Positions 1 to 4,426 of a DNA stretch of 5,608 nucleotides are shown here, in pieces. The translations under genes were made by a program, and so were the position numbers. Numbering within the stretch: the stretch's first letter is position 1; the number at the start of each line of letters is the position of its first letter. The stretch is from Candidatus Fermentibacterales bacterium (GTDB taxonomy: Bacteria; Fermentibacterota; Fermentibacteria; Fermentibacterales; JAFGKQ01), in the NCBI GenBank assembly GCA_016928495.1, contig JAFGKQ010000091.1, forward strand, positions 1 through 5,608, written 5' to 3'. The notes under the pieces were generated by a model, which was given only the letters and a program-made list of their open reading frames with translations, was not told where the DNA came from and did not search any database.

Positions 1-809
1 CCTCCGAGCAGATCCTGCGGGTGGGAGCGCCCCAGCCCGAAGTCGCCCGGAGTCATCCAGAAGCTCCGGACGCTGCCCCGGTCGAGCTTCGATACCCGCG
101 TCCTGCCGGTCACCGTCATCTCGTCGTACCCCCCCTCGCCATGGACGACGAGGGCGCCCCTGCAACCGAGACCCGAGAGAGCCTCGGCGAGCGTCTCCGT
201 GAGATCGCCACTACAGACCCCCAGGAGCTGGGCATCCGCCCCCGCGGGGTTGCAGAGGGGACCGAGAAGGTTGAACATCGTGCGTTGTCCCAGCTCCCTC
301 CTCGGGCCGCTGACATGCCGCATGGATCCGTGCAGGGCGGGAGCGTACAGGAAGCCTATGCCGATGTCCTCGATGCAACCGCCTATCTCCTCCGGCGTCA
401 TCGTAAGCCGCACACCGAGCGCTTCCATCAGGTCCGCGCTCCCGCAGCCGCTGGAGACGGCCCTGTTGCCGTGCTTCGCCACGGGAACGCCGGCCCCCGC
501 CACGACGAGAGCGGCTAGCGTCGAGAAGTTGAAGCTACGGGTCATGTCCCCCCCGGTGCCGCAGGTATCGACCAGTCGCGAGCAGCGCCTGCCTCTCCGG
601 ACGGGGACCTTCGAGCACCTCTCCCGCATGACCCTTGCCGCCGCTACCAGCTCGCTCACGGTCTCCCGCTTGCAGCGCATGGCCATGAGAAAGCCCGCTA
701 TCTGCGCGTCGGTCGCGCTTCCCTCCGTCATCTCCCTGAACGCGGCCTCCACAACGGCCCCGGGCAGCTCCCTGCCTTCGACCGCCTCTGCTATGGCCTC
801 GCGGATCAC
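1..809 (-). CDS. trpD: Anthranilate phosphoribosyltransferase, C-terminus cut by window edge
   Basis: TrpD transfers the phosphoribosyl group of PRPP to anthranilate, the second step of tryptophan synthesis from chorismate, in the cytoplasm. I translated the minus strand from GTG at 809 and obtained 269 uninterrupted residues. The family usually has about 340, so roughly the last 70 are missing. Visible family motifs are the PRPP-binding DTCGTGGD loop (residues 81-88), SFNFST (92-97, usually TFNIST-like), KHGNRAVSS (112-120) with GSADLMEALG after it, MRHV...RRELG...FNLLGPLCNPAGA in the middle, and a late VVHGEGGYDEMT segment whose Asp-Glu pair normally binds magnesium. The start is well supported. 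The GTG overlaps the trpE stop codon as GTGA, and GGAGGT (820-815) lies 5 bases before it, so translation is probably coupled to trpE. The Cys pair around residue 122 replaces the more usual Lys-Ser of this loop but does not alter the core motif. Confidence 0.96.
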   Translation of the reverse strand, partial: MIREAIAEAVEGRELPGAVVEAAFREMTEGSATDAQIAGFLMAMRCKRETVSELVAAARVMRERCSKVPVRRGRRCSRLVDTCGTGGDMTRSFNFSTLAALVVAGAGVPVAKHGNRAVSSGCGSADLMEALGVRLTMTPEEIGGCIEDIGIGFLYAPALHGSMRHVSGPRRELGQRTMFNLLGPLCNPAGADAQLLGVCSGDLTETLAEALSGLGCRGALVVHGEGGYDEMTVTGRTRVSKLDRGSVRSFWMTPGDFGLGRSHPQDLLG

Positions 810-2242
810 GGCAGACCTCCGTTCGTGCCGCTCAGGGCGTTCAGGCTCTGGGCGGCCTTGTTCTCGAGCTCCCTGTACTCGTGTGCCCCGACGGAGTCGG
901 CGACTATGCCGGCACCGACCCGTATGCTGAATCTCTGCCCGCAGAACTCGATGATCCTGATCGCGATGCAGGTATCCAGAAGCTGACCCGGCCCGAAGTA
1001 GCCGACGGCGCCCCCGTAGGGGCCCCTGGGCGTGGCTTCCAGGCCGTCGATCACCTGCATGGCCCTGAGCTTGGGAGCGCCCGACACCGTGCCGGCTGGG
1101 AAACCGGCGATGAAGGCATCGATCACATCAGCGTCCGGGCGTAGCCTCCCTCTGGCCTCCGAGACGATGTGCATCACGTGGCTGAAGCGCTCCACCGCCA
1201 TGTAGGGGCTGACGGCGACTGAGCCGAACTCGCAGACCTTCCCGATGTCGTTCCTGGCGAGGTCCACCAGCATGACGTGCTCGGCCCGCTCCTTGGGGGA
1301 GGAGATCAGCTCCTGCTCGAGAGAACGATCCCGCTCCGGATCGGATGATCTGCCTCGAGTCCCGGCTATCGGCCTGATGACGGCCTCGCCCGAGCGCTCG
1401 ACCCTGACGAGGGTCTCGGGAGAGGAGCCGAGGAGCTGCCGGCCGCCCTGCTCCAGAAAGAACATGTAGGGGGATGGGCTGAACACGCGGAGCCTCCTGT
1501 AGGCATCGATGGGCCGCATCGTGGTGGTTCCACCGAAGCTTGCGGACAGGACCACCTGGAAGATGTCGCCATCCCGGATGAGCTTCCCGGCCTCTTCCAC
1601 GGAGGCCAGGAACGCCTGCCTGTCCGGGGGGGTCAGACCGGTTGGACCGGTCGAGGCGATCTCACCGACGCACAGGGGCCGCGCCAGACGGGCTTCCATC
1701 CGCTCCAGGCGCTCGAGTGCCCCCGCCCTGTCGCCGCCGATAGCGACCAGAGTCATGATCCTCTGCCGGTGATCGAACACGACGTAGCAGGACGAGAGGG
1801 CGAGGCGCGCAGTCGGAGGGGAGTCCGGAAGCCCTCCCGGCAGCTCCTCGATCAGCCTCACGCAATCCCAGCCCACGTAACCCATCAGGGAGCCGACACA
1901 GGGCAGGTCGGGCAGGTCCCTGCACCCGACGGCCGCCATCAGACCGCGGAGCACGGGGAAGAAGGCCGAGGGGGAGCGGTCCGGCTCCGGAAGGCCTCTT
2001 GACGCGCTCCCGGAGAGAGACACCCCCTTGCCCGAGAGGGTCAGGGTGATCAGCGGGTCGAACGCCACGATCGAGTACCGCCCACCCGACTCACCCTTCT
2101 CCACGCTCTCCAGGAGGAAGGAGTCGGGCATCCCCTCGCAGAGCTTGAGGTAGGCGGATACCGGAGTGTCCGTGTCGGACAGCCTTCTCGTGACTGCCGA
2201 CGTGAAGACGATCGTTCGCTCTGCAACGGCAGCATCAGTCAC
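806..2242 (-). CDS. trpE: Anthranilate synthase component I
   Basis: TrpE converts chorismate to anthranilate using ammonia supplied by a glutaminase partner (TrpG). It is the first committed step of tryptophan synthesis. Numbered from the GTG at 2242, the protein has 478 residues, normal for the family. Near the N-terminus LLES (43-46) matches the segment that forms the tryptophan feedback site. The chorismate-binding domain carries RPIAGTRGR, ERAEH...DLARND, HIVS (358-361), GTVSGAPK (384-391), GPYGGAVGY (407-415) and GAGIVADS (443-450). These favour TrpE over PabB, and the trp leader and trpD neighbour agree. An in-frame ATG at 2257 exists but has no ribosome site before it. The GGAGGT that would serve the gene (2255-2250) lies inside that extension, 7 bases before GTG 2242, so I chose the GTG. 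Expression is probably controlled by the leader attenuator directly upstream. The gene ends in a 4-base overlap with trpD, with no trpG between. Confidence 0.96.
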   Translation of the reverse strand: MTDAAVAERTIVFTSAVTRRLSDTDTPVSAYLKLCEGMPDSFLLESVEKGESGGRYSIVAFDPLITLTLSGKGVSLSGSASRGLPEPDRSPSAFFPVLRGLMAAVGCRDLPDLPCVGSLMGYVGWDCVRLIEELPGGLPDSPPTARLALSSCYVVFDHRQRIMTLVAIGGDRAGALERLERMEARLARPLCVGEIASTGPTGLTPPDRQAFLASVEEAGKLIRDGDIFQVVLSASFGGTTTMRPIDAYRRLRVFSPSPYMFFLEQGGRQLLGSSPETLVRVERSGEAVIRPIAGTRGRSSDPERDRSLEQELISSPKERAEHVMLVDLARNDIGKVCEFGSVAVSPYMAVERFSHVMHIVSEARGRLRPDADVIDAFIAGFPAGTVSGAPKLRAMQVIDGLEATPRGPYGGAVGYFGPGQLLDTCIAIRIIEFCGQRFSIRVGAGIVADSVGAHEYRELENKAAQSLNALSGTNGGLP

Positions 2243-2249
2243 TGGAACA

Positions 2250-2255
2250 ACCTCC
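2250..2255 (-). promoter_or_regulatory. Ribosome binding site deciding the trpE start
   Basis: On the minus strand GGAGGT occupies 2255-2250 and is followed by 7 bases and then GTG at 2242. The upstream in-frame ATG (2257) overlaps this SD sequence and has only the terminator U-tract and TCGCGTTC before it. The GTG is therefore the better start. Confidence 0.8.
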
Positions 2256-2264
2256 ATGAACGCG

Positions 2265-2293
2265 AAAAGCCCACCGTCATGTCGACGGTGGGC
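2265..2293 (-). terminator. Intrinsic terminator hairpin of the trp attenuator (regions 3:4)
   Basis: On the minus strand GCCCACCGTC (2293-2284) and GACGGTGGGC (2278-2269) form a perfect 10-bp stem around the 5-base loop GACAT. TTTT follows (2268-2265). The U-run is short, but the stem is strong and sits 10 bases before the trpE SD sequence, where a terminator makes sense only as a conditional one. The 5' arm can instead pair with a segment inside the leader peptide gene, giving the antiterminator. Confidence 0.85.
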
Positions 2294-2395
2294 ATCACCA
2301 GCCCCGGGGGGCTTCTCTCAGCTCACTGCTCTAGGATCCACCCCTCCCGCCGACGTTGCGATGGGCGTACCACCAGTAATAGCGGAAGTCGGAGG
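2281..2395 (-). promoter_or_regulatory. trp attenuator: competing leader RNA pairings (regions 1-3)
   Basis: Pairings were worked out by eye on the minus strand. Region 2 is GTCGGCGG (2354-2347), inside the leader reading frame, 16 bases after the Trp codons. It can pair without interruption (one G-U) with CCGTCGAC (2288-2281), which overlaps the 5' arm and loop of the terminator; this is the antiterminator. Region 2 can also pair with CCTCCGAC (2395-2388), seven of eight positions, leaving the Trp codons in the loop; this is the 1:2 hairpin. A ribosome stalled at the Trp codons would cover region 1 and free region 2. A ribosome reaching the stop codon would cover region 2 and let the terminator fold. 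This order matches the classic enterobacterial trp attenuator. No folding energies were computed. Confidence 0.75.
2299..2313 (-). other. Small GC-rich hairpin between attenuator regions 2 and 3
   Basis: On the minus strand AGCCCC and GGGGCT form a near-continuous inverted repeat (2313-2300), giving about 5 bp with a 4-base loop. It lies between the leader stop codon and the terminator arm, so it would fall within the loop of the antiterminator. It could be a pause site or simply compact that loop. The hairpin is visible; the role is inference. Confidence 0.4.
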
Positions 2396-2453
2396 CGTGA
2401 CCGGAGGACGTGCGCATTCCCGCCGGTGCGGCGGAAGCCGCGGAACCCGGCAT
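2331..2453 (-). CDS. trpL: trp operon leader peptide with tandem Trp codons
   Basis: This short minus-strand frame ends at TAG 2333-2331. It contains TGG TGG (2375-2370) inside the cluster F-R-Y-Y-W-W-Y. Its role would be to sense charged tRNA-Trp during transcription of the trp leader, not to make a functional product. The frame opens at ATG 2480, giving 49 residues, with further in-frame ATGs at 2471, 2453 and 2417. I chose 2453 (40 residues) because GGAG (2465-2462) lies 8 bases before it. ATG 2480 lies only about 3 bases after the predicted transcript start and could work only as a leaderless start. ATG 2417 has no properly spaced SD and would give 28 residues. The stop lies about 40 bases before the terminator hairpin and just past the region 2 segment, as expected for an attenuator peptide. 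Confidence 0.82.
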   Translation of the reverse strand: MPGSAASAAPAGMRTSSGHASDFRYYWWYAHRNVGGRGGS

Positions 2454-2489
2454 GAAGAAGTCTCCGGTCATGGTGCGCATAGTGGCGGC

Positions 2490-2518
2490 TTTATAGGAGA
2501 GCCGCAGAGGGTTGTCAA
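2490..2518 (-). promoter_or_regulatory. Sigma70-type promoter of the trp operon
   Basis: On the minus strand the -35 box TTGACA (2518-2513) is a perfect match to consensus. A 17-base spacer follows, then TATAAA (2495-2490), one base from TATAAT. The predicted transcript start is the A near 2483, leaving a leader of about 240 nt before trpE. The position upstream of the Trp-rich leader frame supports the call. Confidence 0.85.
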
Positions 2519-2615: not shown

Positions 2616-3407
2616 TTGACCGTCAGGATCGCGACGTGGAACGTCAACTCCATCAGGGCCCGCATGGACTCCGTCACCAGGTGGATGGAGGAGAACTCGC
2701 CGGACGTCATGTGTCTTCAGGAGCTGAAGGTAGAGGAAGAGGCCTTCCCCGGGGATGTCTTCGAGGGCATGGGTTACGCCGTGGCCCTCAACGCCCAGAA
2801 GACCTGGAACGGGGTGGCCACCATGTCCAGGCACCCCCTGGAAGAGGTGAGGCGCGGATTCAGCAGCGGCTTCCTCGGCGAGCAGAAGAGGCTCCTCACG
2901 GTGAGGACAGCCGGCATCACGGTCGCGAACGCCTACGTTCCGCAGGGGGGCGATCCCTCCCTGCCGAGGTTCCGGGACAAGCTCGGCTTCCTCGAGGAGC
3001 TTTCCACGGAGTTCGGCGGCTTCGTCGACTCCGGCAAGCCACTGCTTCTCGCCGGGGACATGAACGTGGCGCCCGGGGACGACGATGTGTTCGACCCGGT
3101 CGAGCTGTCCGGCCTGGTGGGGTTCCACCCGGAGGAGAGGAAGAGGATCCGCGCCCTCATGGAAAGAGGCTTCGTGGACCTGCTGAGGACTTTCAGGCCG
3201 TCGGGCAAGGTATACTCCTGGTGGGACTACAGGGGGGCGGCCTTCAGGAGGGACAGGGGCATGAGGCTCGACCTGATGCTGGCGAGCGGGCCCCTCGCGG
3301 CCAAGGCCCTGGACTGCGCCGTGGACCCCGCCCCCAGGAAGTGGACGAAGCCGTCGGACCATGTCCCCGTTCTCGCCACCTTCGACCTGTCGAGGAGGGA
3401 AGACTGA
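2616..3407 (+). CDS. xth: Exodeoxyribonuclease III family AP endonuclease
   Basis: Enzymes of this endonuclease/exonuclease/phosphatase fold cut DNA at abasic sites and remove 3' blocking groups in base excision repair, using a divalent metal. The 263 residues match the usual length (E. coli Xth has 268). Visible motifs in order are TWNVNSIRAR (7-16), CLQELK with metal-binding Glu36 (33-38), NGVATMSRHP (65-74), the catalytic Tyr region NAYVPQGG (105-112), AGDMNVAP with Asp148 and Asn150 (146-153), YSWWDYRG (200-207), RLDLML (217-222) and the terminal PSDHVPV with the conserved Asp248-His249 pair (246-252). Nothing essential is missing. The start is TTG, chosen because GAGAGGT (2602-2608) sits 7 bases before it and the conserved N-terminal motif begins almost at once. 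The stop overlaps the next start by one base, so this gene heads a plus-strand operon. Whether it is the Xth or ExoA subtype cannot be settled by eye. Confidence 0.95.
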   Translation: MTVRIATWNVNSIRARMDSVTRWMEENSPDVMCLQELKVEEEAFPGDVFEGMGYAVALNAQKTWNGVATMSRHPLEEVRRGFSSGFLGEQKRLLTVRTAGITVANAYVPQGGDPSLPRFRDKLGFLEELSTEFGGFVDSGKPLLLAGDMNVAPGDDDVFDPVELSGLVGFHPEERKRIRALMERGFVDLLRTFRPSGKVYSWWDYRGAAFRRDRGMRLDLMLASGPLAAKALDCAVDPAPRKWTKPSDHVPVLATFDLSRRED

Positions 3408-4426
3408 TGTTGGAGAATCGCTGGCAGTGTCTTCTGATGCTATGCGCCGTCCTGCTGATCGCGGGCGCCTTCCGGAGCGCCCCGGCCCAGGACAGGGAAG
3501 CGCCCCACGTCCAGGTCCACGAGTGGGGGGTGCTGACCTACGGCACGGACTGCACGCCCGACCTGCTGTCGGCCCCGAGCTCTCCCTACGCCACGGTAAG
3601 CCCGTTCGATGACGGCGAGATCGTAGTGCGGGCGCCCGTGGTCTACTTCCATGGCCCCGAGTTCACCGGCGCACTCACGGTGGAATCCGGGCTCGGCCGC
3701 ATAATCGATAGCAGGCCCCGTCCTGACTACCTGTCCTCGGACAGGAGGAAGGCGGAGTGGAGGGATCTGGCGTGCGACTTCAGCGTCTCGAGGTGGGCGC
3801 TGGAGCGCGACGCCCGCGAGATACCGCTAACGGAGCTCGACGACCTCACCCTCTACATGGGCTTCTGGAGGCAGGTCGAGAGCGCCGTCATCCGCAGGGG
3901 AGAGGACTTCGAGGACCGCTTCGTGTACTACGAGATAGGGCTGGATCAGCTCCCCCTCACGACACCCCTGATCCACAGCCGGGGAGGGTCCGTCCTCATC
4001 CCGGACGACTTCGACGGGGAGATGCTGGTCTTCCGGCTGACCGACCAGGGCACGGACATCTGCCTGATCGAGGATGCCGCTGATGCGACCGCCTCTCCCG
4101 AGGACTGGGGTTTCCACTATCCCGGGGACGACGAGGTTATCGACGTGCTCCAGAGATGGGCGGTCGACGGGCTGCTGCCGGAGGAGGTGCTGGCGCTCTG
4201 GGCCACCTGGCGCGGCTACCTCCTGGGGGGCGAGAACTTCGGCAGGGCGGCCGGCTCAGCCGTGGTGCTGTACAGGCTGCCGGAGGAGACCGTGGAGGAA
4301 ACCTGCAGCCTGGTCCTGGAGACCGATGAGGGCTACCCGGTCGACTACTGCAGGTTCATCCTCGGCGCAATGGAGGTTCCCCTGGTCGGCCCCATGTTCC
4401 TCTACGAGGGCGAGGGCTCCCGCTAG
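3407..4426 (+). CDS. Secreted protein of unknown function with HEWG motif
   Basis: The 339-residue product begins with a clear Sec signal peptide: a short charged N-terminus with Arg5, a hydrophobic stretch at 8-22, and an A-P-A cleavage site at 25-27. There is no lipobox cysteine, so it is probably exported as a soluble periplasmic or extracellular protein. The mature part starts with VHEWGVLTYG (37-46), followed by APVVYFHG (76-83), EWRDL (117-121), EDRFVYYEIG (169-178), VVLYRLP (286-292) and a CRFILGAMEVPL ending (315-326). I recall this order (HEWGTFT-like start, PVIYFY-like strand, KFLFYRG-like strand, late LYxLP) from uncharacterised secreted proteins of Planctomycetes, Acidobacteria and myxobacteria; that is memory, not a search. 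No catalytic function is assigned. The mature chain has several cysteines. The ATG overlaps the exonuclease stop in TGATG and has AGGAGG (3393-3398) 8 bases upstream. The same frame stays open backwards to 2636, but that stretch is a shadow of the exonuclease gene. Confidence 0.85.
   Translation: MLENRWQCLLMLCAVLLIAGAFRSAPAQDREAPHVQVHEWGVLTYGTDCTPDLLSAPSSPYATVSPFDDGEIVVRAPVVYFHGPEFTGALTVESGLGRIIDSRPRPDYLSSDRRKAEWRDLACDFSVSRWALERDAREIPLTELDDLTLYMGFWRQVESAVIRRGEDFEDRFVYYEIGLDQLPLTTPLIHSRGGSVLIPDDFDGEMLVFRLTDQGTDICLIEDAADATASPEDWGFHYPGDDEVIDVLQRWAVDGLLPEEVLALWATWRGYLLGGENFGRAAGSAVVLYRLPEETVEETCSLVLETDEGYPVDYCRFILGAMEVPLVGPMFLYEGEGSR

Follow-up and report, generated by a model that had tools for sequence, protein, structure and literature searches.

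A predicted ribosome-mediated transcription attenuator upstream of trpE in a member of the Fermentibacterota, with comparable leaders in a second phylum of uncultured bacteria

How transcription of tryptophan biosynthesis genes may be controlled in an uncultured bacterium is the question raised by the 360 bases separating trpE from the divergent gene xthA in a genome of the Fermentibacterota. The window, i.e., the whole stretch of DNA that was analysed (5,608 nucleotides), corresponds to one complete contig, C178, in a metagenome-assembled genome of 2.31 Mb whose completeness is 81%. An earlier note, made from the letters of this DNA, had claimed in that interval a complete attenuator outside the usual model organisms, which is a fair description of a metagenome-assembled genome belonging to a phylum of which 42 genomes were examined. 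The mechanism of the Escherichia coli trp attenuator has been described (PMC7298713, PMC1183508), and Naville and Gautheret (2010) gave leader-peptide attenuators as known only in the Proteobacteria and the Actinobacteria, with the Firmicutes added (PMC2965389). As judged from sequence and folding models, the trpE-trpD operon is very probably controlled here by a ribosome-mediated transcription attenuator.

All the attenuator parts sit on the minus strand within the 360 bases (Table 1), and the genes under the predicted control are those of tryptophan biosynthesis, trpE and trpD lying immediately downstream. The start of trpE is probably GTG 2242, behind the Shine-Dalgarno sequence GGAGG (2255-2251), rather than the automatically assigned ATG 2257, which overlaps that sequence; GTG 2242 agrees with the MTEI start in a relative of the same phylum, namely G041. 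Mis-binning of the contig was considered, and its membership in the genome bin is plausible since relatives of xthA, none of them close (46-58% identical), occur in most genera of the phylum. Of note, the contig also encodes at 3407-4426 (plus strand) a probable secreted protein of 339 aa, for which Pfam and NCBIfam gave no match.

Table 1. Coordinates of the features at the trpE locus (window positions) and of the candidate his attenuators (positions within each locus)
Feature	Position	Strand	Description
Sigma-70-type promoter	2490..2518	-	TTGACA (2518-2513), 17-nt spacer, TATAAA (2495-2490); sequence inspection
trpL leader frame	2331..2480	-	MRTMTGDFFMPGSAASAAPAGMRTSSGHASDFRYYWWYAHRNVGGRGGS, then stop; 49 aa, ATG 2480 to TAG 2331
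Tandem Trp control codons	2370..2375	-	TGG TGG, motif RYYWW; from sequence, same motif at G041 trpE
1:2 hairpin	2344..2388	-	2388-2381 with 2351-2344, 8 pairs; pair probability ~0.8 in nascent RNA
2:3 antiterminator	2281..2354	-	2354-2347 with 2288-2281; 8 uninterrupted pairs, one G-U
3:4 intrinsic terminator	2265..2293	-	2293-2284 with 2278-2269; perfect 10-bp stem, loop of 5 nt
trpE, anthranilate synthase component I	806..2257	-	TIGR00564 (440.9 bits); Anth_synt_I_N and Chorismate_bind
trpD, anthranilate phosphoribosyltransferase	3..809	-	TIGR01245 (314 bits, above cut-off); truncated by contig end
xthA	2616-3407	+	Divergent from trpE/trpD
Candidate his attenuator	L099 (G000:C182, 6172-9711) 1233-1394		His-rich frame and G+C-rich hairpin upstream of hisG
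Candidate his attenuator	L098 (G041:C64, 9891-13415) 1324-1410		His-rich frame and G+C-rich hairpin upstream of hisG

The consensus promoter claimed by the earlier note is found by inspection where it had been placed, a consensus promoter scan leaving it uncalled solely for want of the final T in TATAAA. From the position of this promoter, the transcription start (+1) is predicted near 2483, and the leader frame with TGG TGG, present as had been described, opens at ATG 2480, i.e., about 3 nt further on. Since the first in-frame ATG follows the predicted +1 by about 3 nt in G041 as well, the data suggest that the leader gene is leaderless. The position of its start is uncertain, an alternative ATG at 2453, preceded by GGAG and yielding a peptide of 40 aa, competing with ATG 2480.

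Downstream of the promoter, all the parts follow in order, with the spacing that had been claimed as suited to stalling control, and masking the ribosome footprint switches the folds. The proposed 1:2 pairing is present, the helix listed in Table 1 being the best one and the one that retains segment 2 when no ribosome is there, and its inner hairpin (2375-2370 with 2364-2359) includes the Trp codons. Segment 2, GTCGGCGG (2354-2347), lies inside the leader frame, whose stop codon comes 13 nt past its end, and pairs with CCGTCGAC (2288-2281) to form the 2:3 antiterminator, the eight uninterrupted pairs of which are borne out; this duplex is stronger than in shuffled sequences (p=0.013). For the perfect 10-bp 3:4 terminator, said to stand just before the trpE ribosome site, the stem is exact (-20.4 kcal/mol), and 2:3 and 3:4 are mutually exclusive, with 2288-2284 common to both. 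Directly 3' of the stem, UUUU (2268-2265) is followed by CGCG (sequence after the hairpin: TTTTCGCG); because the U tract is short, i.e., UUUUCGCG only, termination in vivo may be weak, and a consensus terminator scan requiring five T in eight leaves the hairpin uncalled.

Chance was gauged by dinucleotide shuffles of 2489-2258 together with a pattern search over the 42 genomes. A perfect 10-bp hairpin before TTTT arose in 0/20,000 shuffles; short frames containing TGG TGG were present in 212/20,000. That such a frame, taken alone, turns up in about 1% of shuffles, as well as the poor U tract, would suit a terminator or processing site that lies between divergent genes and is not regulated, with the TGG TGG frame present by chance; this, however, leaves aside that the antiterminator is complementary to the terminator arm and that the hairpin is located downstream of a trp promoter, just before the trpE ribosome site.

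The competition between 2:3 and 3:4, on which the earlier note had made its claim depend, was calculated by folding in two situations, namely a nascent RNA ending at 2279, where segment 4 is absent, and an RNA with the full segment 4, a stalled ribosome being mimicked by masking its footprint with the A site at one or the other Trp codon. In the nascent RNA, the probability of 2:3 is 0.98 with the Trp codons masked, 0.24 with the ribosome absent, and 0.003 with the ribosome at the stop codon, and 2:3 is the minimum-energy fold of the nascent RNA 3' of a ribosome stalled at Trp. As such, the position of the ribosome determines in silico which hairpin forms. Once segment 4 is complete, 3:4 has a probability of at least 0.99 in every ribosome state; at equilibrium 2:3 loses to 3:4 and prevails only before segment 4 is transcribed, from which it follows that it can act only as a kinetic antiterminator, in keeping with what switches of this class demand. 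When the RNA starts at 2375, the fold of lowest energy is an extended antiterminator in which 2366-2359 is also paired to segment 4; it was rejected because 2366-2359 would be hidden beneath a ribosome halted at the Trp codons.

In its parts, their order, their conservation and their folding in each state, the locus has the make-up of an attenuator, for which we infer the transcription start, leader translation, stalling, termination and response to tryptophan along the following lines. RNA polymerase would start near 2483, with a ribosome translating the leader behind it. When Trp-tRNA is ample, the ribosome would clear both Trp codons and arrive at the stop codon (2333-2331), where it would cover much of segment 2, since this codon lies 13 nt after it; 3:4 would then form and transcription would end before trpE. 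When Trp-tRNA is scarce, the ribosome would stall at 2375-2370, covering segment 1, and the freed segment 2 would pair with segment 3 ahead of the synthesis of segment 4, the polymerase continuing into trpE. With no ribosome, 1:2 would form, leaving 3:4 to terminate.

Among the 42 genomes of the phylum, 24 of which are at least 90% complete, trpE is present in two, one of these being 95% complete. Most of the phylum seems unable to make tryptophan via TrpE, which is what makes a retained and regulated trp operon notable. The second trpE, that of G041, encodes a protein 51% identical to the TrpE of the window, in an operon running trpE-trpD-trpC-trpF-trpB up to the contig end. The trpB fragment at that end (C38) is 95.8% identical to the trpB at the end of C43, beside trpG, and these represent either two trpB copies or a single operon split by assembly. 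Upstream of the G041 trpE, a promoter (TTGACG-17-TATAAC) stands at a distance from the leader ATG similar to that in the window, and the leader, MERIKSTNPFCSGRCQSAGSVDVRSCSTVFAYYRYYWWHTPEKAVVRQL, counts 49 codons with WW at 37-38 (36-37 in the window leader). The 1:2 stem has 8 bp and, as in the window, encloses an inner hairpin that carries the Trp codons, the 2:3 antiterminator is a perfect 8 bp (GGCGGTGG with CCACCGCC), and the 3:4 terminator, of 11 bp, is followed by six T, i.e., a longer U tract than in the window; folding is state-dependent as for the window. The relative checked for tandem Trp codons and for the hairpin, whose lack the earlier note would have held against it, hence possesses both.

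The motif CGNTAYTAYTGGTGG has exactly two occurrences in the 42 genomes, both upstream of trpE (window and G041), and its backward control pattern has five, at scattered places. It is this absence of the leader motif elsewhere, and the recurrence of motif, length and helices at the sole other trpE of the phylum, that further count against an unregulated terminator, an explanation we deem highly improbable. The codons of RYYWW differ synonymously, CGC TAT TAC TGG TGG in one leader and CGG TAC TAT TGG TGG in the other, which favours selection on the peptide or on the codons. In the alignment that the earlier note had called for, the Trp codons are conserved, and covariation, readable from the two same-phylum sequences only, consists of one clearly compensated pair in 3:4 (T-A in the window, C-G in G041). 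Both 2:3 and 3:4 are out of register between the two sequences, and 2:3 lacks column-wise covariation because its helices are offset by about 3 nt.

T-boxes control some trp operons in Gram-positive bacteria, and a highly structured leader of about 220 nt would not look out of place as a Trp T-box or as another tRNA- or metabolite-sensing riboswitch, for which translation is not needed. The conserved features are nonetheless in-frame codons, RYYWW with synonymous differences between genomes, and Rfam gave no match above chance in the window, T-box models included, nor any up to E=5 for Trp_leader (RF00513); the Rfam scan of eight relatives' loci likewise gave nothing above chance. A sensor of this type is, in our estimation, extremely improbable. 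Unlikely, too, is joint aromatic sensing, where stalling at the conserved Tyr-Tyr adds to Trp-Trp stalling: YY immediately precedes WW in both same-phylum leaders, G041 having YYRYYWW, and segment 1 would also be masked by a ribosome halted on the Tyr codons, but the operon does not produce Tyr and most leaders of the second phylum, considered below, are Trp runs without YY. Stalling at the tandem Trp codons remains the preferred reading.

Beyond trpE, hisG in both trpE-bearing genomes is preceded by His-rich short frames (LRHLFHAHHHVRTGG...; MPRTGMARPVLWHHHRHVHPS...), each frame being followed by a G+C-rich hairpin with a T run immediately ahead of the gene. Since hisG of both genomes has such a leader and terminator, leader-peptide attenuation seems to be used more generally by this lineage. 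A survey of 80 trpE loci spread over many phyla turned up clear Trp-rich leaders accompanied by terminators in several records of deltaproteobacteria as well as in L070, whose phylum, the second one considered here, takes its name from one Candidatus Krumholzibacteriota record. In half of the trpE loci fetched from this phylum (15/30), trpE is preceded by a terminator and by a leader in which Trp codons cluster. Over 17 loci, the duplex between the stretch following the Trp codons and the terminator 5' arm beats shuffles (Fisher p 6e-6; 2e-6 minus two near-duplicates), values that serve as a guide and not as a blind test because loci and terminators were chosen by eye from the survey. Antiterminator complementarity is strong at L100 (GCGGATAG with CTATCCGC, extended) and at L121; at L102, L104, L106 and L112 the 2:3 duplex is no better than shuffles. 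Within the series L100-L126, from the phylum of L070, Trp-rich leader peptides (e.g., RYWWSWRDLPCG, SSWWWWRVPADGG, GYWWRWWTWRPDG) lie about 150-300 nt before trpE, and the terminator 5' arm contains (C)CATCCG or CTATCCG, the Trp codons being followed by a complementary CGGAT(A/G)G. These trp leaders could form a new Rfam family.

That trp and his attenuation, with long and possibly leaderless leaders, is general and hitherto undescribed in this phylum and in the Krumholzibacteriota is advanced tentatively, at a little under even confidence; in the open literature searched, the coverage of which is incomplete, there is no description of attenuation in either phylum. With the present case and its relatives, two phyla of uncultured bacteria would be added to the range of leader-peptide attenuators. 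Such elements escape Rfam and consensus terminator scans, the leader genes remain unannotated, and the approach gives a practical route to recognising amino-acid-controlled operons in metagenome-assembled genomes. For the specialist, the interest lies in the distribution and in the long, possibly leaderless leaders.

Respective to known systems, the trp attenuators predicted in the phylum of L070 resemble the present one in having a Trp-rich leader, an antiterminator and a terminator before trpE, but differ in the leader peptide motif and, for many of them, in the CGGAT(A/G)G antiterminator strand, the TrpE proteins being 42-49% identical over full-length matches. The attenuators of Corynebacterium and Streptomyces (PMC1262725) likewise have, ahead of a trp operon, a leader peptide in which UGG is doubled or tripled and a G+C-rich antiterminator and terminator, although the phylum differs and the likeness drawn here is one of layout. 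In Sinorhizobium meliloti, rnTrpL (PMC7298713) precedes trpE as an RNA that contains Trp codons and a terminator, and the leader frame is, as predicted here, at or near the transcript 5' end; the peptide peTrpL is, however, of 14 aa, the 5' end in the present case is predicted from the promoter, and the present RNA is not known to act in trans. With the E. coli trp attenuator (trpL; Rfam Trp_leader RF00513), the locus shares the order of the parts, tandem Trp codons, helices 1:2, 2:3 and 3:4 that exclude one another and trpE as first gene, while its leader is longer (40-49 aa versus 14), segment 2 falls within the leader frame with the stop about 13 nt later, and the U tract is short. The switch mechanism is that of the textbook, the novelty lying in its place of occurrence and in the long, possibly leaderless leaders.
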